NCBI RefSeq assembly: GCF_000196435.1
Contig: NC_010161.1
Span: 1,178,001-1,242,000, forward strand
DNA: 64,000 bases
Source of the DNA: Bartonella tribocorum CIP 105476
GTDB lineage: Bacteria > Pseudomonadota > Alphaproteobacteria > Rhizobiales > Rhizobiaceae
Direction of reading: 5' to 3'
Of this stretch, positions 3,889 to 12,847 are shown one piece after another (within the stretch, counting starts at the first letter, position 1; every line of letters starts with the position of its first letter). The position numbers were made by a program, and so were the translations under genes. The notes under the pieces were generated by a model, which was given only the letters and a program-made list of their open reading frames with translations, was not told where the DNA came from and made no database searches.

Positions 3889-5055
3889 TTAAGATTGACC
3901 AGTGACATAAGCCGCCCATTTATCCATATAGACCCGACGCTGTTCTAAATAGTCAGTACGACGATAGGCACGCTCTACTTTACCGCCGACCGTATGACTT
4001 AAAATGGTTTCAGCGACCTCATAGGGGGCATCGGTTGTTTCAGCGAGCCAATCACGTAAACTAGAGCGAAAACCATGGGGGCAGGCTTTAAGACCAGTTT
4101 GCTGCATGTATTGAGCCATACAATTTACACCAAGGGGACCGCGACCTTTAGCAGAAAAAAAGAAATCATTGCGAGAGAGCAAACGCGCTTGTTTTAAAAT
4201 ATCTAATGCCTCTGTTGATAAGGGCACGCGAAATTCTTTTGTTGTATCACGCTTTCCTTTCATATTTTCAGCAGGGATAGTCCATATATCCCCATCAATC
4301 TGATTTTCACGAATATGACGTAAGGGATTAGTACGAACTCCTGTCAGAATAAGCAACCGCAAAGCCAAATGTGTCATAGTTATTTTTTGGCAAAGCGTTT
4401 GATAAAAAGCCGGCACATCTCTCCAATCCATGGCTGGTCTATTAATAACATTATGACGTTGTTTGCCTAAGAGCGCGCGTGCTTTTTCTACAGCTTGTAA
4501 ATCAACATCCAATCCTAAGGCAGCCGCATGTTTGAGACAAAGATTAAGACGATTCAGTGCTTTACGCGCGGTATCAGCTTTTGTATGCCAGATAGGAGCA
4601 AGGGTATTGCGTATTTCTGTTTGCGTAATCTCAGAAACGGGCAGACAGCCTAATTTAGGGAGAATATGAAGGCGTAATGGTAAAAACCAATGTCCATCTT
4701 TACCGTCACCTTTTAATTCAGCTTTCCGACTTTCAAAAGTATCCAAGGCAATATCTTTTAAATAATGGAGATTACGCATTGCTTCACGCTTTTGTTTCTC
4801 ACGTTCTTTAATGGGGTCACGACCCTCATGCAAAACAGAACGCCATTGGTTTGCCAATTCACGGGCTTTTTTTAAAGAAACATGTCTTAAGGCACCCAAG
4901 CCCATTTCACGGCGGCGCCCGTGAATGGTATAACGATAAAGCCATTGAGCACCCCCATCTTTACGCTTATGAAGTAACAAGCCGGCACCATCATTATATT
5001 TGCCAGCCCCCAATGTTGCGACAGACCTTGCATTAAGACGGTTCATAAGAGCCAT
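3889..5055 (-). CDS. Tyrosine-type site-specific integrase (DUF4102 class)
   Basis: The 388-residue protein has the arm-binding DUF4102 domain (residues about 1-85: KYNDGAGLLLHKRKDGGAQW, then YTIHGRRREMGLG), a core-binding domain to about residue 190, and a P4-like catalytic domain. Catalytic residues visible are Arg in LTGVRTNPLRH, His and Arg in CPHGFRSSLRDW, His in ETILSHTVGG and the nucleophile Tyr near the end (YLEQRRVYMDKW). Length is normal and it appears intact, so it may still be active. It would catalyse integration and excision of the decayed element. A degenerate relative lies at 59460-59800. Confidence 0.9.
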   Translation of the reverse strand: MALMNRLNARSVATLGAGKYNDGAGLLLHKRKDGGAQWLYRYTIHGRRREMGLGALRHVSLKKARELANQWRSVLHEGRDPIKEREKQKREAMRNLHYLKDIALDTFESRKAELKGDGKDGHWFLPLRLHILPKLGCLPVSEITQTEIRNTLAPIWHTKADTARKALNRLNLCLKHAAALGLDVDLQAVEKARALLGKQRHNVINRPAMDWRDVPAFYQTLCQKITMTHLALRLLILTGVRTNPLRHIRENQIDGDIWTIPAENMKGKRDTTKEFRVPLSTEALDILKQARLLSRNDFFFSAKGRGPLGVNCMAQYMQQTGLKACPHGFRSSLRDWLAETTDAPYEVAETILSHTVGGKVERAYRRTDYLEQRRVYMDKWAAYVTGQS

Positions 5056-5251
5056 TTTTAGTCCTTTCTTCTATAGTTTTTACCCATACGCCAACCCCGC
5101 TTGTGACGTGCAAGCAAGTGATATGAATTGATTCAATCTGAGAGGGTTTAGAATAAGAAAATCTTACTATATTCAGTCCTCTCATTCAATATGCAAAACA
5201 GTAAATTATCATTATAAATCAATGTGTTGCCGAAATTAGGATTCATGAGAG

Positions 5252-6253
5252 ATGTCAACGATTTATGATTGGTCGCTTAGAGCGGCGGATAATACGCGTT
5301 GTGATGCTTTAATTGACTGGTCAGAGGGACAGCATCCTAGCAGTGTAAACAAGAGCGCCCGTGTGATGATGCAGCGCGTGCGAGAATATTTATCCGATAC
5401 GGGTGGAGCGCTTGAAGGCATTGTTAGCAATGATCATGTTCAACAAACGAGCACGATACGTCTTCAAAGCCAATCGCAATTTTTAGAGTATAAGAATGGG
5501 ATTGTTTTGCGCTTTATGGCAACAGGCAGGAATGTTGGGGCAAGCACGATGCTCCTTAATGCTTTAGATGGCAAGCCGGTTTATAAAGCAACAGAATTAG
5601 GGGTTGGTCCTTTATTGGGAGGAGAAATCCAAGAAGGGTGTATTTATACATTGGTGTCTCGTGGAGATAGTTGGTATCTTGTTAATCCTACCCCTATGCC
5701 AAGAGAAGAAGAAAGCAGTCTTTATCCTACTGGATTTATAGGCACGTTTGGTATGCGTGATGTTCCAAAAGATTGGTTAATTTGCGATGGGAAGGCTTAT
5801 TTGCGTCGTGACTATCGCGATTTATTTGAGACGATAGGAACGGTTTGGGGAGAAGGAGATAGTGTAACGACATTTAATGTTCCGGATTTTCGAGGAATGT
5901 TTTTACGGGGAGTTGATGGTGGAAGTAATTTAGACCCCAATCGTCGGTTTGCAAGTGTTCAGACAGATTTAATCCAGTCTCACCAACATGAAGGTCAAAC
6001 TCTTTCGATGCCTCATTTTACCAGCAACGAAAACTTTTGGGATGGGAATACGACGGAGGTATTAGGTTATCGTCTAGGCTTGTTTGGAGGGGGAGCTCTA
6101 GCGAATTTTATGGGTATAGAGAGTGAGAATTTAAAGAGTCACGTTGCAACTCCCTATTCCTTTGATGAGAATCAAGAAGTTATTTTGGAAAGCACTGGAG
6201 AAGGTGAAACGCGTCCAGTCAATGTTTCTGTCTTGTTTGCGATTAAGACATGA
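5252..6253 (+). CDS. Phage tail-collar fibre protein, copy 1
   Basis: The 333-residue protein begins MSTIYDWSLRAADN and has a conserved N-terminal region (about 1-150) shared with the next two genes. A Phage Tail Collar domain follows (about 165-225): GTFGMRDVPKDWLICDGKAY, then TTFNVPDFRGMFLRGVDGG. A variable stretch and a conserved end (GETRPVNVSVLFAIKT) complete it. Such proteins form short tail fibres that contact the host. It is the first and intact member of a tandem triplet; the next copy starts eight bases after its stop. Confidence 0.85.
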   Translation: MSTIYDWSLRAADNTRCDALIDWSEGQHPSSVNKSARVMMQRVREYLSDTGGALEGIVSNDHVQQTSTIRLQSQSQFLEYKNGIVLRFMATGRNVGASTMLLNALDGKPVYKATELGVGPLLGGEIQEGCIYTLVSRGDSWYLVNPTPMPREEESSLYPTGFIGTFGMRDVPKDWLICDGKAYLRRDYRDLFETIGTVWGEGDSVTTFNVPDFRGMFLRGVDGGSNLDPNRRFASVQTDLIQSHQHEGQTLSMPHFTSNENFWDGNTTEVLGYRLGLFGGGALANFMGIESENLKSHVATPYSFDENQEVILESTGEGETRPVNVSVLFAIKT

Positions 6254-6261
6254 GGTTTAAG

Positions 6262-7274
6262 ATGTCAACGATTTATGATTGGTCTTTGAGAGCCTCTGAG
6301 AATGCGTATTGTGATGGGTTGATTAATTGGTCAGATGGACAGCGCCCTAGTAGCGGAATAATAGTGCGCGTGGGATGATGCAGCGTGTGCGTGAGTATTT
6401 ATCGGATACGAGTGGTGTGATTGAAAGCACGTTTACGGTTGATGTTGGACAGCAGACAACGTTGATAAGACTTCAAAGCCAATCGCGTTTTTTGAAATAT
6501 AAGAATGGGATATCGCTTTGTTTTAAAGCGAAGAGCAAGAATGTAGGGGCGACCACGATTGCTTTGAATGATTTATCCGCCAAGCCCGTTTACAAGGCGA
6601 CGGAATTAGGCATCAGTCCTTTATCGGGAGGGGAATTTCAAAAGGGGTGCATTTATAGCTTGGTCTATAGAGCAGATGCTTGGCATGTCTTAAATCCTAC
6701 GCCGGTTTCTTTACCATCAGAGCCGATTCTCCCCGTTTATCCTGCAGGGACGATAGGGATTTTTGGGATGCAAGTTTTGCCGGAGGGCTGGTTGTTGTGT
6801 GATGGTAAGGCTTATTTGCGCAGTGAGTATAGTGCTCTTTACAAAGCGATATGGATCAGGTGGGGGGGCAGTGATAGTGTTACCCATTTTAACGTTCCGG
6901 ATTTGCGTGGTGTTTTTTTGCGTGGCGTTGATGATGACCGCGATATAGACCGTTTTCGTTATTTGGGGACTTTACAGAATGACGCGATAAGAAAGCATGA
7001 TCATGGAGGTCAATCCTTTACGATTTTGAATGCTGAAAATCAGGAGGAGAGTTGGCATGGCGATATGACGATTATCTGGGGTTACGTGCTTAATGACCAG
7101 CAAAGGTTAAAGTTAGCCGAACGTTTGGGTGTGAGAGCAGAGGATATACGGGTTCATCATAAGCTCGCCTTTCCGCATACCCACCTTCATATGCGTGATG
7201 TTGCGTTGACCAGTTCTGGTGTCAGTGAGACACGTCCGATTAATATGAGTGTTGTGTTTGCGATCAAGACGTGA
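6262..7274 (+). pseudogene. Phage tail-collar fibre protein, copy 2, frameshifted
   Basis: The gene starts like its neighbours (MSTIYDWSLRASENAYCDGL) at the ATG at 6262. Around codon 32 (about 6355) one base is missing relative to copies 1 and 3, so the frame ends at TGA 6376-6378. The remaining frame is intact to 7274, including the collar domain (GIFGMQVLPEGWLLCDGKAY and FNVPDLRGVFLRGVDD) and the usual end (SETRPINMSVVFAIKT). Restart at ATG 6375 would give a 299-residue protein lacking only the first 37 or so residues, so partial function is possible. No homopolymer is present at the lesion, which argues against simple slippage. Confidence 0.75.
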
Positions 7275-7281
7275 GGTCAAG

Positions 7282-8412
7282 ATGTCGACGATTTATGATT
7301 GGTCTTTAAGCGCCTCCGAGAATGGTGGTGCGGATAATCTGATTAATTGGTCAGAAGGACAACATCCAAATACGGTTAATAACAGCGCCCGTGTGATGAT
7401 GCAAAGGATGCGTGAATATTTATCCGATATAGGGGGTGTCATTGAAGGGATTGTTACTGTTGATGATAAACAAAAGACGAGTGCGATACGTCTTCAAAGT
7501 CCCTCTCAATTTTTAGCGTATAAGAATGGGATATCGCTTTGTTTTAAAGCAAAGGGTAAGAATGTAGGGGCAACCACGATTGCTTTGAATAATTTAACCG
7601 GCAAGCCCGTTTATAAGGCAACAGACACTGGTTTATTAGCTTTAACGGGAGGAGAAATCCAAGATGGCTGTCTTTATACCGTTATTTACGATGAAGATAT
7701 AACCGGTTGGCAAATACTCAATCCCACAAGGGGAAAAGTTTCTTTCTTAAAACGTTTACCGTCTGGTTTAATCGGTCCTTTTGCCATGGAACGCTTGCCG
7801 GATGGTTGGTTGTTGTGTGATGGGCGTGCTTATTCGCGAAGAACGTATAGAGCTTTGTTTGATGGGATAGGAACGACGTGGGGTGAAGGGGATGGTTCTA
7901 CGACGTTTAATGTTCCCGATTTTCGTGGAATGTTTCTACGAGGTATGGACTATGAACGCAATTTAGACCCTTGGCGTTCTTTTGCGAGTCAACAGGGCTG
8001 CTCTTTGAAAGCACATGAACATTTTATCGGTCCAGCATTTCCAAATGATCATTCTTCTCGAAAAAGACGGGATGTTTCTTCTTCTCAAGCGCCTGTGACA
8101 AGGCGCAAGAGAGCTATAGACGAAGAGTGTTTAGGCTTAGACGGTGATGCTTTAGACAAGTGTAATCAAGAATTTGACCAAATAGCAGGAAGTCCACAGG
8201 TAGAGGTTCCCTTTTGGTTCACAGAAAAAGATAAGCCAGCTCGTTTGCCTTGGTTTATCCGGAGTCCCTTTGCAAACTTTTTATATTATTCGACGCCGAT
8301 CAAAGAGGGCGTCATGACAGCGCATCATGAACATCACCTTATGGCAGAGAGTGTTGGTGGTGTTGAGACGCGCCCGGTTAATGTAAGTATCGTTTATGGG
8401 ATCAAGACATGA
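7282..8412 (+). CDS. Phage tail-collar fibre protein, copy 3
   Basis: With the ATG at 7282 (same MSTIYDWSLSASEN start and GAGG as in the other copies) the product has 376 residues. The N-terminal region and the collar domain (GPFAMERLPDGWLLCDGRAY, then TTFNVPDFRGMFLRGMDYE) match copies 1 and 2. A distinct variable region follows, including a strongly basic patch (SSRKRRDVSSS and TRRKRAID) and an acidic segment, before the shared end VETRPVNVSIVYGIKT. The upstream GTG frame start at 7249 is inside copy 2 and less likely. It should be a receptor-contact fibre paralogue. Confidence 0.85.
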   Translation: MSTIYDWSLSASENGGADNLINWSEGQHPNTVNNSARVMMQRMREYLSDIGGVIEGIVTVDDKQKTSAIRLQSPSQFLAYKNGISLCFKAKGKNVGATTIALNNLTGKPVYKATDTGLLALTGGEIQDGCLYTVIYDEDITGWQILNPTRGKVSFLKRLPSGLIGPFAMERLPDGWLLCDGRAYSRRTYRALFDGIGTTWGEGDGSTTFNVPDFRGMFLRGMDYERNLDPWRSFASQQGCSLKAHEHFIGPAFPNDHSSRKRRDVSSSQAPVTRRKRAIDEECLGLDGDALDKCNQEFDQIAGSPQVEVPFWFTEKDKPARLPWFIRSPFANFLYYSTPIKEGVMTAHHEHHLMAESVGGVETRPVNVSIVYGIKT

Positions 8413-8421
8413 GGAGTTGAA

Positions 8422-8643
8422 ATGACCTTAAAACCGTTTGCCATATCAGAGCTTAGCGACCCGTCTCAAGTACGGGTCGTTTTGTATTCGGGGGATCATT
8501 TTGTTCACGCGCCGCTTCATGGTGTTTTTGATTTACTGAAAACAGCTTTGAAAAGCGAGGTTGATGGTTCGCTGAAAGATTTAGAGAAGCGCTTAGAAGC
8601 CTTAAGGGAAGAGTTTGAAGATTTAAAAGAGTGTTCATTTTAA
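8422..8643 (+). CDS. Small phage protein between fibre genes
   Basis: The 73-residue product has a compact beta-like N-terminus (SQVRVVLYSGDHFVHAPLHG) and a charged helical end (LKDLEKRLEALREEFEDLKE) that should form a short coiled coil. AGGAG lies upstream, and it begins ten bases after the collar gene and ends 21 bases before the giant fibre gene, so it belongs to the fibre operon. A linker, chaperone or trimerisation partner of the fibre is possible but unproven. No family is recognised. Confidence 0.65.
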   Translation: MTLKPFAISELSDPSQVRVVLYSGDHFVHAPLHGVFDLLKTALKSEVDGSLKDLEKRLEALREEFEDLKECSF

Positions 8644-8664
8644 GTTAATGGAGGAAGAAAGCAG

Positions 8665-11600
8665 ATGAAGATACCTGATCATAGTCATGAATATTTGATA
8701 CCGATAGCGACGAAAGATGAAATTAGAGAAGGCACTTCGCAAAGTAGTGTTGTTGTTCCAAAGGTTTTAGGAACGGCATCTTTGTATTCGTATGAAACTT
8801 TTGCGCCGTTAGAACAGGTTGTTAATGCACGTCAGGAGTCTGAAAAGGCGATGGCACGTGCGAATGGAGCACAACAGGTTGCCGAAGAAGCGAAGAGGGT
8901 GTCGGAACAAGCGCTTAGCGAAGCTACAAAAACGGGTGAAGCGGTTACAGCAGCAACGACAACGGCTAGTCTTGCGAAAGATACAGCGGATACAGCCAAG
9001 GGCTTAGCAGAAGAAGCCAAGAATGCTTCTGATGCTGCGAAGCACATGGCAGAAGAGACAAAAGCAGCAGTCGATAGAGCCTCAGGGGAAATCAATGGTA
9101 CGAAAGGTTCATTGGCTACGGCATTACAACGTTTTGAAGAGGTTAAGCAGGTAAGTGAGAATGCCGTTAATATCTCGACCGAAGCCAAGAGGTTAGCTGA
9201 TGAATCGAAGACCATTGCAACCCGTGCAGAACAAACAGCAAGAGAAGCTTCACAAACAGCAACAGAGACGACGCAAGTAGCAGCAAAAGCGGTAGCGACG
9301 TGTCATGAAGTTAAGACAGTAGCGACACAAGCAAGTCTAAAGGCGGATGGCGCCAAACAGACAGCCGATGATGCCAAGGATATTGCAGAAAAAGCAAAAG
9401 AGTTATCGGAAGGGACAACATCTTCTATTACAGAACTTACAAAAACAACGTCACAAGTACAAACGGCAGTAGAGAAAGCATTAACGGACTTAAGGGACGC
9501 CAAGCAGATAGCAGAGGCATCTAAGACTCTCTCAGAAGAAGCTAAACAGACAGCTGCTGATGCATTGACAGCGTCGAAAGATGCCAAATCACAATCCGAG
9601 ACAGCGGTAAGCAGGTCAGAAGAGGCAAAGGCTCTTTCAGAACAGTCAAAGGGTGCTTGTGATGAATTTAAAGCCTCCGTTGCGTCAGTTGAGAAAGTTG
9701 CAGAAGCGGCGAAAACAGGCGTGGAACAAGCTTCGCAAACGGCATCAGAAGCGAAGGGAATAGCGGAAACCGCGAAAAGTACAGCCGATAGTGCAACGGC
9801 AAAAGCAGAGCAAGCCCAACAAGAAGCGTCAGAAGCCTCTCGATTAGCTTCTGAAGCGAAGGTAGTGGCAGAGCAAGCATTGCAAGCAGATAGACAAGCG
9901 GTCCGTGAAGGAAGTGAAAGCACCAAGAGTTTGGTAGAAGCTGTTCAGAAGAAAACAGAGGAAGCTGAGAGAGTTGCGCAAGACAGTAAGAGAGTTTGTG
10001 AAGAAACCAAGCAATTAGCAACAGAAGCGAAAAACGCCTCCACTAATGCGCTTACAGAAGCGACTGCTGCGAAGGAGAAAGCATCTAGGGCGCTTACCAC
10101 AGTCAATGATGTAAAGAATATTTCTGAAGAAGTTAAAGGGTTAGCAGAAAAAGCGAGTAGGGCATCTACAGAGGCGCAAAAGACATCAGACCAAGCTTTA
10201 AGAGAAGCGACTTCTGCGAAAACAACGGCGGATATGGCGTCCAGCACAGCCACTGATGCAAAGGGAAGCGCGGAGCAAGCCCAAACAGTATCAGAAGAGG
10301 CAAAGACGTTAGCACAGACAAGCAAGAATGCTTGTGATGAAATCAAGCAAACGATAGGTGATGTTAAAAGCGTTGCAGAGAATGCCTTATCGACAGCCAC
10401 TACAGCGAAGCAGAAAGGAGATGAGATAAGCCAACAAATCTCAGAATCGTTCACGAAATCTGGTGAAGCAAAGACGTTAGCAGAAGAAGCAAAACGGTTG
10501 GCATCAACCTCACAAGAGACAGCAGAAGAAGCAAAGGTTAAAGCAGCAAGCGTAGAGAGAATTGCGACTGAAGCAAACCAAACAGCTAGCTCTTCGAAGA
10601 GCGTATCGGAAGAAGCGAAAGAAGAGGCAAGTAAAGCCAAATCGATAGCTTTAGAAGCCAAAAATACAGCCGATAGTGCAACGGCAAAAGCAGAGCAAGC
10701 AAAAGAAGAAACTGAGACGGCGAAGCAAGGTCTTGGAGAGGTTAAGAGTTCTTTAGACGCGGTGACAGCAACGACAAACTCTGCGAGTACAGCGGCCTCT
10801 GAAGCAAAAGTGTTGGCGGAAGAAGCGAAGAGTGCATTAACAGAAGTGCAAGAGAAGTCCCAGAGTCACAGTGACAGTCTTTCTAAACTTCAAGGTGATG
10901 TAGGTGTCCTTTCCGCTTATATTTTTGAGGATGCGTATTTTGTTCAACCTCAAAAAATTTTGGAAGCAGATTTGCAAAAAAGAAGAGGTATTATGATCAA
11001 AGGCGGCGTAATTTTTCGCTTTTATCATGGTGGAGAGCATGGGGGTAAGTACACCTTGCACCGTCTTGCAAAGGGTACGAATATACTTATTACAATGCCT
11101 CTTGAAGCAGGAAAAGATTATTATATCTATTTTATACCAAACCTCCTTGATCATAATGAGATCAAATTGGATATTTCAGAAAATCCGACGGCTCCTGATG
11201 GCTATACAGAGCATAATTCTCTCAAGATAGGTGGATTTCATACGCTTTGTGCAGATGTTGGTGAGATTGAAGATCATCCCTTATCGGGTTATCAAGCAGG
11301 GGATATCCTCCCTGATTCTGTTTGGTGTTTAAATCACCGTCCCAGAAGTGATCCAGAGGGAATGGTTTACGATTCGTGGAAGAATATTTGGGTTGATATT
11401 TATCTTCAATCAGGGATAGATGAAAATACGAAGTCTGCTTATGGTGCTCCGATTACAACCAATCGTAGCTATTCTGATCATCTCGCGGATTTTGCGTATG
11501 TTAATAAGAGATTTTTGACGAGTGATGAGTTTTCGTCTTGCATGTTAGGAAGCAATGCGGGAAGCAGTATTATAGGCAATCAAGCGCCTTCTCCTAAAAC

Positions 11601-11898
11601 GTCTGGGGGACACGTTGATACAGCCAATCGTCGTATGATTTCGGCTATCGGTTGTGAGGATGGTTGCGGTTATGTTTGGCAATTTTTGTCTGGTTGTTAT
11701 CCAGTGACTAAATGGCATACAGGGGAACAAGGAAGCAGTTTACATGTAGACGTAAGTGTTATGTTGGGAGGAGGGGATTGGTCTGGTGATTCTAGTAATG
11801 ATGCGCTTGCGCGGAATTTTGCGTATTCTCGTTATGACGAAGATGAAAAAATAGGCGCCCGTGGATGTAGTGATCCATTTTATTCTAATTATAACTAG
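8665..11898 (+). CDS. Giant coiled-coil tail fibre with tropism-determinant-like C-terminal domain
   Basis: The 1077-residue protein has a short N-terminal head, then about 680 residues of Ala/Glu/Lys-rich coiled-coil repeats (AEEAKxxA-type). A fibre segment follows (GGFHTLC..., GDILPDSVWCLNHRP, PEGMVYDSWKNIWVDIYL). The last about 110 residues carry GGHVDTANRRMISAIGCEDG, GYVWQFLSG, LGGGDWSGDSSNDALARN and IGARGCSD, the pattern of C-type-lectin-fold variable proteins such as Mtd of DGR phages. It probably binds the host surface at the fibre tip. GGAGG precedes the ATG. A GC-rich terminator follows. A 35-base exact repeat occurs twice in frame. The fold call is from motif memory. Confidence 0.85.
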   Translation: MKIPDHSHEYLIPIATKDEIREGTSQSSVVVPKVLGTASLYSYETFAPLEQVVNARQESEKAMARANGAQQVAEEAKRVSEQALSEATKTGEAVTAATTTASLAKDTADTAKGLAEEAKNASDAAKHMAEETKAAVDRASGEINGTKGSLATALQRFEEVKQVSENAVNISTEAKRLADESKTIATRAEQTAREASQTATETTQVAAKAVATCHEVKTVATQASLKADGAKQTADDAKDIAEKAKELSEGTTSSITELTKTTSQVQTAVEKALTDLRDAKQIAEASKTLSEEAKQTAADALTASKDAKSQSETAVSRSEEAKALSEQSKGACDEFKASVASVEKVAEAAKTGVEQASQTASEAKGIAETAKSTADSATAKAEQAQQEASEASRLASEAKVVAEQALQADRQAVREGSESTKSLVEAVQKKTEEAERVAQDSKRVCEETKQLATEAKNASTNALTEATAAKEKASRALTTVNDVKNISEEVKGLAEKASRASTEAQKTSDQALREATSAKTTADMASSTATDAKGSAEQAQTVSEEAKTLAQTSKNACDEIKQTIGDVKSVAENALSTATTAKQKGDEISQQISESFTKSGEAKTLAEEAKRLASTSQETAEEAKVKAASVERIATEANQTASSSKSVSEEAKEEASKAKSIALEAKNTADSATAKAEQAKEETETAKQGLGEVKSSLDAVTATTNSASTAASEAKVLAEEAKSALTEVQEKSQSHSDSLSKLQGDVGVLSAYIFEDAYFVQPQKILEADLQKRRGIMIKGGVIFRFYHGGEHGGKYTLHRLAKGTNILITMPLEAGKDYYIYFIPNLLDHNEIKLDISENPTAPDGYTEHNSLKIGGFHTLCADVGEIEDHPLSGYQAGDILPDSVWCLNHRPRSDPEGMVYDSWKNIWVDIYLQSGIDENTKSAYGAPITTNRSYSDHLADFAYVNKRFLTSDEFSSCMLGSNAGSSIIGNQAPSPKTSGGHVDTANRRMISAIGCEDGCGYVWQFLSGCYPVTKWHTGEQGSSLHVDVSVMLGGGDWSGDSSNDALARNFAYSRYDEDEKIGARGCSDPFYSNYN
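9781..9815 (+). repeat. Exact 35-base direct repeat, copy A, inside fibre gene
   Basis: The stretch beginning ACAGCCGATAGTGCAACGGC recurs exactly at 10666-10700. The copies are 885 bases apart, a multiple of three, so recombination between them would delete 295 residues of coiled coil without shifting the frame. Confidence 0.85.
10666..10700 (+). repeat. Exact 35-base direct repeat, copy B, inside fibre gene
   Basis: Second copy of the repeat at 9781-9815, in the same reading frame. It encodes a TADSATAKAEQA-type coiled-coil unit. Confidence 0.85.
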
Positions 11899-11922
11899 AT
11901 TGATTAGAGCATCATTTTATGC

Positions 11923-11948
11923 AGCCCCACTGATGTGGGGCTTTTTTT
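11923..11948 (+). terminator. Intrinsic terminator after the giant fibre gene
   Basis: AGCCCCAC (11923-11930) and GTGGGGCT (11935-11942) form an 8-bp GC-rich stem with a TGAT loop, followed by a T run. It separates the fibre operon from the lysis cassette. GC-rich 8-bp hairpins with four-base loops also sit downstream of variable repeats in DGRs, but the loop here is not the GRNA type and the T run favours a terminator. Confidence 0.85.
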
Positions 11949-11960
11949 ATGGAGGATGGG

Positions 11961-12623
11961 ATGAGAAAGATATCCAAAGAAGGTTTGGAGCTTATCAAAC
12001 AATGGGAAGGATTACGTTTAGAAGCGTATAGAGATACGGCATGTATCTGGACGATAGGTTATGGTCACACCAGCAATGCTGGTAACCCGCTTGTCAAAAA
12101 AGGTATGCGTATTACGAAAGAGCGAGCAGAAGAAATCCTTTGTGAAGACTTAAAGCAATTTGAGAAGACGGTAGAGGAATCGGTCACGGTTTCATTAACA
12201 GATTGCCAGTTCGCGGCATTGGTGTCGTTTTGTTATAATGTAGGAACAACAGCTTTTTGCAAGTCGAGTCTTTTGAAAAAACTTAATCAAGGGGATTATG
12301 AATCCGTTCCAGCAGAATTACAGAAATGGAATAAGGTCGGTGGAAAGCTTCTTGCGGGATTAGCCAACCGTCGAGCAGCCGAAGCAGGTTTGTGGGCGAA
12401 AGGGTCTTATGTTTCTTCAAACTATCAAAGAGTGGAAACGAAAGAGGCGAGAGGTCTTTTCAAGGTAGAAGCACTCGCGCCGATTATAGGGTCTTGTTCT
12501 GGTTTTGGGGGATTTTTGGTAGGCAATGGACCAATTCAGTGGGCTTTAGCAGGGATTATGGTTTTAGCCGCTTGTACAGGTCTTGTGATTGTTGCCAAGC
12601 GTTTTCGGGAGCAGCGCTTGTGA
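11961..12623 (+). CDS. Phage endolysin, GH24 lysozyme family, with C-terminal membrane segments
   Basis: The enzyme hydrolyses peptidoglycan to release phage. From the ATG at 11961 (GGAGG at 11951-11955) it has 220 residues. The T4-lysozyme-like catalytic site is visible: Glu16 (KQWEGLRLEAY), Asp25 and Thr31 (WTIGYGHT). The domain ends at about residue 150 (NRRAAEAGLWAKG). The last 60 residues hold hydrophobic segments (APIIGSCSGFGGFLVGNG and WALAGIMVLAACTGLVIVA), which should tether it to the membrane. An ATG 12 bases upstream lies in the terminator's T-run region and lacks a ribosome site. It opens the lysis cassette and overlaps the next gene by four bases. Confidence 0.88.
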   Translation: MRKISKEGLELIKQWEGLRLEAYRDTACIWTIGYGHTSNAGNPLVKKGMRITKERAEEILCEDLKQFEKTVEESVTVSLTDCQFAALVSFCYNVGTTAFCKSSLLKKLNQGDYESVPAELQKWNKVGGKLLAGLANRRAAEAGLWAKGSYVSSNYQRVETKEARGLFKVEALAPIIGSCSGFGGFLVGNGPIQWALAGIMVLAACTGLVIVAKRFREQRL

Positions 12624-12847
12624 TTTTTTGGTTCAAAAGAAATCTGTCTCTTCTGTTAGCGGCTTTAGCCGTTTTTTTAATGGCATTCGCCAAAGCCTTT
12701 CACCTTGGCAAGAAAAGCGAGCGGCAAAAGCAAACAGAGAAAGCTTTAAAGACAGCAATCACCCGTTTTGAGGTTGAAAATGAAGTTAATCAAAAAAGTG
12801 ATACTGGTGTGCGTTCTGCTTTGTCTCGTTGGGTGCGGGGCAAATAA
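12620..12847 (+). CDS. Rz-like spanin subunit (lysis cassette)
   Basis: A GTG start overlaps the endolysin stop (GTGA), giving 75 residues: an N-terminal membrane helix (LSLLLAALAVFLMAFAKAF) and a charged helical tail. The size and layout match inner-membrane spanins, which with an outer-membrane lipoprotein disrupt the envelope at lysis. The next gene, a small lipoprotein, starts inside this gene in another frame, the classical Rz/Rz1 arrangement. Sequence similarity to known Rz proteins is low, so the call rests on context and topology. Confidence 0.6.
   Translation: MIFWFKRNLSLLLAALAVFLMAFAKAFHLGKKSERQKQTEKALKTAITRFEVENEVNQKSDTGVRSALSRWVRGK

Follow-up and report, generated by a model that had tools for sequence, protein, structure and literature searches.

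We analyzed a giant tail fiber gene in a stretch of 64,000 nucleotides (the window, bases 1178001 to 1242000) of the main contig of Bartonella tribocorum, whose genome comprises 2642404 bases in two contigs (completeness 100). The 1077-residue product ends in a head related to Mtd, the major tropism determinant of Bordetella phage BPP-1, which itself is a phage with a diversity-generating retroelement (DGR). Our main conclusion, to which we give a probability of roughly 80%, is that this Mtd tip was separated from its DGR, has been kept, and evolves by substitution and by exchange of tips, binding being its predicted role.

In the mechanism that we propose, the product would be a long tail fiber of a Bartonella prophage. 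Its N-terminal end would sit on the virion, as suggested by Mtd, and an alanine-zipper coiled coil would form a stalk holding out the receptor-binding tip. This tip would be the Mtd-type head, consisting of the second domain and the C-type-lectin domain, whose fold is evident from model and homology and whose binding role is predicted from Mtd. The head would descend from a DGR-diversified Mtd, and the Bartonella lineage would, to judge from the tree, have lost or never taken over the reverse transcriptase (RT) and the template repeat, so that the tip would be fixed at short time scales. Over longer times, ordinary substitution would alter it, including sites where copying from a template would have prevented change, and recombination would move tips among prophages of different Bartonella species. 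We lean slightly toward the further claim that a genus-wide phage lineage gave up targeted hypermutation once and kept the Mtd binding face, adopting a slower scheme in which tips are fixed, substitution is free where a template once locked the sequence, and prophages exchange ready-made tips across species.

The Mtd-type head of the fiber

An earlier note, made from the sequence alone, had described the open reading frame and proposed an Mtd-family, C-type-lectin tip on a long coiled-coil fiber. The frame and all the motifs quoted in that note are present, and the proposal is borne out by several matches. Pfam PF21916 (mtd_2nd) matches residues 811 to 888 of the fiber with 56.4 bits against a cut-off of 24.6 (E = 4.3e-15), and PHROG 11262 ("tail protein") spans residues 797 to 1072 (E = 2.6e-44). 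A phmmer search of PDB sequences returned Mtd-U1 (1yu4_A; E = 1.9e-11) in an alignment running through the variable region (VR), and in the comparison of the predicted structure with Mtd both the second domain and the lectin domain align. Sequence and structure model together support membership of the head in the Mtd family, with a C-type-lectin fold, and the features expected of that family are found: a second domain, a homologous C-type-lectin head, and a place among phage tail genes. Some Bartonella homologues already carry the database name "phage major tropism determinant", so the family assignment per se is not new. By homology with Mtd, the target of the lectin tip should be a surface structure on the bacterium that the phage infects.

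The segment that had been proposed as the tip, from position 11640 onward, is indeed Mtd-like, but the likeness starts well before, at about 11095 according to Pfam and at about 10909 (around residue 749) according to the structural alignment. The Pfam match covers profile positions 42 to 115 of 115, and the second domain probably starts earlier than residue 811. An alpha helix rises by 0.15 nm per residue, and the stalk would be about 100 nm long if fully helical.

Compared with Mtd of BPP-1 (1yu0-1yu4, 2iou), likewise a phage tail protein, the Bartonella fiber shares the second domain and the C-type-lectin domain, with a match through the variable region. It differs by its long alanine-zipper stalk and by the absence of the GSR motif, and neither template nor RT was found in its genome. 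The region 3' of the gene also differs, with a hairpin, a template, and an RT in BPP-1 and a terminator-like hairpin in Bartonella. Mtd-type DGR targets of metagenomic phages (L099, L101, and L120, for example) and of vir525 (L168) are about 35 to 55% identical to the head in the best segment, and the vir525 gene is annotated as phrog_11262, the family matched by the Bartonella fiber. Unlike the latter, these targets are accompanied by a template no more than about 1 kb away and, immediately downstream, by a DGR-type RT, and their variation is mostly limited to template adenines. Thermus aquaticus TaqVP (5vf4) and Treponema denticola variable protein 1 (2y3c) align with the head mainly in the lectin part, and neither was matched in the phmmer search of PDB sequences with the fiber.

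Reverse transcriptases, template repeats, and relatives

The earlier note had seen no RT or template repeat near the fiber gene, and this holds for the window and, by search, for the whole genome. PF00078, which recognizes five out of five DGR RTs tried, including that of BPP-1, found no RT in the two contigs (control positive in 3 of 14). Searching the genome's DNA with either tip revealed no template; the matches were the tip itself, the other copy, one terminator match, and short weak ones. As a control, blastn scaled to this genome recovered the templates of relatives in 46/46 DGR loci (worst E = 4.1e-16), these loci being the ones that had already passed the template scan. PF05635, which we take to be the family of the DGR accessory protein Avd, had no match in this genome (0/1), its control being without a match anywhere.

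Across 71 Bartonella genomes, PF00078 matched five genes in four genomes: one group II intron RT, one of retron Ec67 type, two Drt2-like (under the cut-off), and one without assignment. Family models lend no support to any of them as a DGR RT. A profile built from 12 DGR RTs yielded weak partial matches alone, in 3/71 genomes, at retron and Drt2-like genes. No DGR-type RT was thus found in the 71 genomes by PF00078, RT family models, or the DGR RT profile, and the four RT-positive genomes have zero overlap with the 26 that carry the head. Of the Bartonella loci, 0/38 have an RT downstream of the head and 0/37 a template. The RT at L041:1261-2571 (genome G007), which is unassigned, matches models of group II, Drt3a, Drt2, and retron St85 but reaches the cut-off of none. 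In the same order as Bartonella, genome G226 (L177) has a BPP-1-like mtd with template and RT, found by these same methods, and G217 has a second-domain match alone, with no RT match in the 15 kb examined.

The GC-rich hairpin that the note had placed at 11923, after the putative variable repeat, is present, but not as a DGR feature. Positions 11923-11930 pair with 11935-11942 around a TGAT loop, and a T run follows; it has the form of an intrinsic terminator. The hairpin loop of phage DGR targets is reported to be GRNA (PMC3240598), and a role as DGR target hairpin is ruled out by the TGAT loop, which is not a 4-nt GRNA, and by the T run.

Among 101 relatives, the head is carried by 26 (the B. 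tribocorum genome included), all Bartonella, and a scan of named genomes for the head gave 18 loci, again all Bartonella. Viral contigs supplied further relatives, taken as the best 80 of 393 loci encoding one, near-duplicates included. Eleven of these 80 are Bartonella: L088-L097 by similarity, and L107 by its downstream lysozyme gene, much like that of the window, and by its place in the Bartonella clade. L107 is counted with Bartonella throughout, in the RT total (0/38, 37 loci before it was added) and in the template total (0/37, 36 before). Bartonella loci from different collections overlap. Outside Bartonella, a DGR-type RT lies downstream in 42/69 viral loci, a template in 44/69, and both in 40; not every RT match is complete, some being partial frames (L100, L130) and others truncated at a contig end, and some loci end too near the gene to show an RT. 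Three further loci (L106, L148, L158) have template-like matches below the threshold. With L168 and L068, the 44 template-positive loci make up the 46 template-bearing relatives used here. Four Mtd relatives (L102, L112, L121, L154) have a template, and no RT was found in their available DNA; they may have lost the RT recently or use a cassette that works in trans.

In a FastTree phylogeny of the head minus the variable region, rooted on BPP-1, a single clade (support 1.0) unites L107 with the 29 Bartonella representatives. Its sister group is mostly RT or template bearing, and the enclosing groups have supports of 0.954 and 0.985. The tree fits an ancestor of the Bartonella head that was a DGR target. 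Most simply, head and DGR parted a single time, loss of the DGR and capture of the head alone being indistinguishable.

Variation, probable exchange, and constraint of the tip

When mapped onto the fiber, the templates of the 46 relatives refine the variable repeat, which the note had located around 11760-11895, to about 11770-11865. Residues 1038, 1040, 1041, 1044, 1051, 1053, 1054, 1058, 1060, and 1062 are target equivalent and align with little gapping. For the alignment statistics, copies under 150 bits were dropped, as were six truncated rows in the first comparison, leaving 42 rows and 29 representatives. Mean column entropy is 3.07 at target sites and 0.90 elsewhere in the template-bearing relatives; in Bartonella, the values are 2.27 and 1.49. 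The target codons of BPP-1, used as a yardstick for Bartonella variability, gave a weak contrast (P = 0.026). Codons ending in C or T (NNY) make up 445/460 target codons in the template-bearing relatives. We looked for an NNY excess as a fossil signature at the Bartonella target sites and found none, the 185/270 observed being near the expectation from amino acid composition (0.666).

Variation confined to NNY-type target codons, as expected from a DGR, is not what Bartonella displays, several non-target sites being variable. Among the six representatives of the window's subclade, a count by eye gives tip differences at five target positions and at seven that are not targets. Since non-target differences are not made by a template-copying DGR, the Bartonella tip seems, on its sequence, to have long evolved without a template. 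That target sites are poor predictors of Bartonella variability counts against a live DGR and also against a clean fossil signature. The GSR motif lies in columns without a target codon in any template; it is found in 44/46 template-bearing relatives, in 21/21 of the remaining outside loci that have sequence at this place, and in 0/30 Bartonella copies. The Bartonella tips retain GG, R1050, and ARG and, nearly, W.

Over short times, the tip hardly changes. In 29 close pairs (scaffold divergence <5%), differences per residue amount to 0.003 in the VR, 0.009 in the rest of the lectin domain, and 0.039 in domain 2. Alleles P0002-P0005 (99 to 100% identical) have the tip in common and differ at a few places upstream. 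Identical VRs even cross species, in L037 (the B. tribocorum genome), L019/L035 (G046), and L014 (G011), with domain 2 differing by 9 to 19 residues. The note had suggested comparing strains for adenine-specific changes in the domain; close copies share the tip, and it is the neighboring sequence that differs. Two genomes hold several head-encoding places, namely, five in G017 (L030, L073-L076) and four in G029 (L031, L077-L079), and in each, four copies have the same variable region. Between distant pairs (scaffold divergence of 0.35 to 0.40), the VR diverges by 0.631 versus 0.374 for the scaffold, and among distant copies no part of the head varies more than the VR equivalent.

The note had left three explanations side by side: a DGR acting in trans, a frozen relic, and a fixed adhesin. 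The first, in which the tip owes its diversity to an active DGR located elsewhere in the cell or brought in by a phage or plasmid, has in its favor that DGRs are able to act on remote targets and that the VR equivalent varies so strongly between distant copies. We consider it highly improbable, given the failure to find an RT and a template in the two-contig genome or a DGR-type RT in the 71 Bartonella genomes, the nearly or wholly identical tips of close copies, also across species, and the varying positions that no template of the 46 relatives targets. An active DGR, in cis or in trans, is thus unsupported. The fixed tip agrees with the close copies, and the frozen relic agrees with them in its short-term stability, but not with the longer-term change at template-constant sites or with the constraint described below.

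For 10 pairs that have no member in common, synonymous divergence reaches 0.293 in domain 2, compared with 0.186 for the scaffold and 0.188 for the tip, and a breakpoint test gave P ≤ 0.001 in 10/17 close pairs (members shared), the tip side being more alike in all ten. We take the synonymous divergence and the breakpoints to mean that prophages have exchanged the lectin tip, presumably by recombination. The pN/pS ratio (nonsynonymous to synonymous polymorphism) is 0.57 in the VR, 0.40 in the lectin scaffold, and 0.25 in domain 2, values from which the head is judged to be under constraint. These ratios argue against the fiber being a dead remnant, that is, a decaying leftover of a DGR phage with a drifting sequence. 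Internal stops in 5/48 matched places, several of them short, and two copies ending within the tip (L062 and P0006) would suit such decay, but the window gene is an intact frame of 1077 codons, many copies have long open frames, and the conserved tip residues listed above are retained, which makes a dead remnant decidedly unlikely.

Several points weigh against separation of the tip from its DGR followed by substitution and exchange. Eleven outside loci with at least 3.9 kb of downstream DNA have no RT and no above-threshold template, although two of them (L106, L148) have template-like matches just below the threshold; absence is therefore not unique to Bartonella, and other losses or remote cassettes exist. 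Non-target residues 1055, 1061, 1065, and 1067 vary less in Bartonella than in the template-bearing relatives, and target sites exceed the others in Bartonella variability by only a weak margin (P = 0.039; Spearman P = 0.06). Among the 29 close pairs and the 17 tested pairs, many have members in common, are within-genome copies, or may be one gene in two collections, and the breakpoint test may also respond to uneven constraint. We looked for positive selection on the tip via pN/pS, and the VR ratio does not show it. Lastly, the node that joins the Bartonella clade to its immediate sister group is supported at only 0.66, which leaves room for a lineage that never had a DGR. The Bartonella head would then be a long-standing fixed tip with the Mtd fold, and tips of this kind would have given rise to the DGR targets seen in other phages. 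The GSR motif missing from all 30 Bartonella copies and the lack of a remaining NNY excess fit this history as well. We hold it to be unlikely in view of the RT- and template-bearing relatives in the sister and enclosing groups, the DGR of BPP-1 at the root, and the nearly ungapped target-equivalent positions.

DGR targets are usually studied along with their machinery. If separation from the DGR is correct, these phages offer a natural experiment on the fate of a DGR target after its template is gone. Intact, machinery-free Mtd heads among DGR-bearing relatives would help to separate residues held by the fold from those held by template copying: GG, R1050, and ARG stay, and GSR goes. This raises the question of why phages of Bartonella could dispense with rapid receptor switching. 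In the accessible portions of the open-access literature on Mtd or DGRs with Bartonella, we found no paper on this fiber protein and no description of a DGR-free Mtd clade with its changed pattern of variation. In the part of PMC4786415 available, "major tropism determinant" and Bartonella stand in separate table rows and do not concern this protein.

The prophage and the second fiber module of the genome

The features of the region are compiled in Table 1.

Table 1. The fiber gene, its parts, and neighboring phage genes (window positions)
Feature	Position	Strand	Basis
Giant tail fiber gene, Mtd-type head	8665..11898	+	1077 aa; Pfam, PHROG, open reading frame
Fiber N-terminal end, residues 1-60, presumed virion anchor	8665..8844	+	Near-identical in the genome's second copy; anchor role suggested by Mtd
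Alanine-rich coiled-coil stalk, residues ~60-745	8842..10899	+	PF11839 Alanine_zipper, E = 2.2e-17, 3 stretches; NCBIfam Ala_zip_lipo
Mtd second domain per Pfam, residues 811-888	11095..11328	+	PF21916, E = 4.3e-15; structure model
C-type-lectin (FGE-like) domain, residues ~889-1077	11329..11895	+	phmmer against PDB sequences; structure model
DGR VR equivalent, residues 1036-1067	11770..11865	+	Templates of 46 relatives mapped on
Intrinsic-terminator-like hairpin 3' of fiber gene	11923..11948	+	Sequence; alike hairpin downstream of close relatives, e.g., L044-L047, L063
Three collar-domain fiber proteins, upstream	5252-6253, 6375-7274, 7249-8412 (5252..8412)	+	PF07484, E = 2.3e-18, 5.8e-17, 6.1e-21
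Phage lysozyme	11949-12623	+	PF00959, E = 5e-49
Rz-like spanin	12392-12847	+	phrog_1026, E = 6.5e-12
Phage integrase	3889..5055	-	PF13356, PF22022, PF00589; phrog_1, E = 3.3e-38

The region farther upstream of the fiber contains a second integrase, helicase-type genes, and phage genes, among them a transglycosylase and, about 24 to 26 kb from the fiber, genes for a virion structural protein and a DNA-ejection-type protein. This setting bears on whether the fiber might serve a bacterial adhesin or a gene transfer agent particle rather than an infecting phage. The Bartonella gene transfer agent cluster does have putative tail-fiber genes (PMC3610622). The fiber is accompanied by an integrase, collar fibers, a lysozyme, and a spanin, with the virion and DNA-ejection-type genes upstream, and its patchy presence (26/101 relatives) is not that of a core gene; we regard such a role as very unlikely.

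A second copy of the module, at about 2.24 Mb, comprises a transglycosylase, three collar fibers, a 1347-aa Mtd-type fiber, and then smaller frames. The two fiber genes of the genome are 86% identical in DNA at the N-terminal end (895-column alignment, bases 1-853 of the window gene) and 74% identical over 481 bases of the head, where the match ends at window base 11693, before the VR. Their tip proteins differ, and one bacterium therefore holds two different tips.

In the second copy, the transglycosylase gene directly adjoins the fiber and lysis module (L087), while the module in the window is separated from its transglycosylase gene. The two integrase genes are about 25 kb apart (3889-12847 region; G000:C2:1156391-1167394, L169, L086). 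This layout suggests that a prophage took up an insertion or was rearranged internally. At L086:11048-14215 (minus strand), four adjacent genes all match phrog_5070 and phrog_7964, a local gene family in the prophage.
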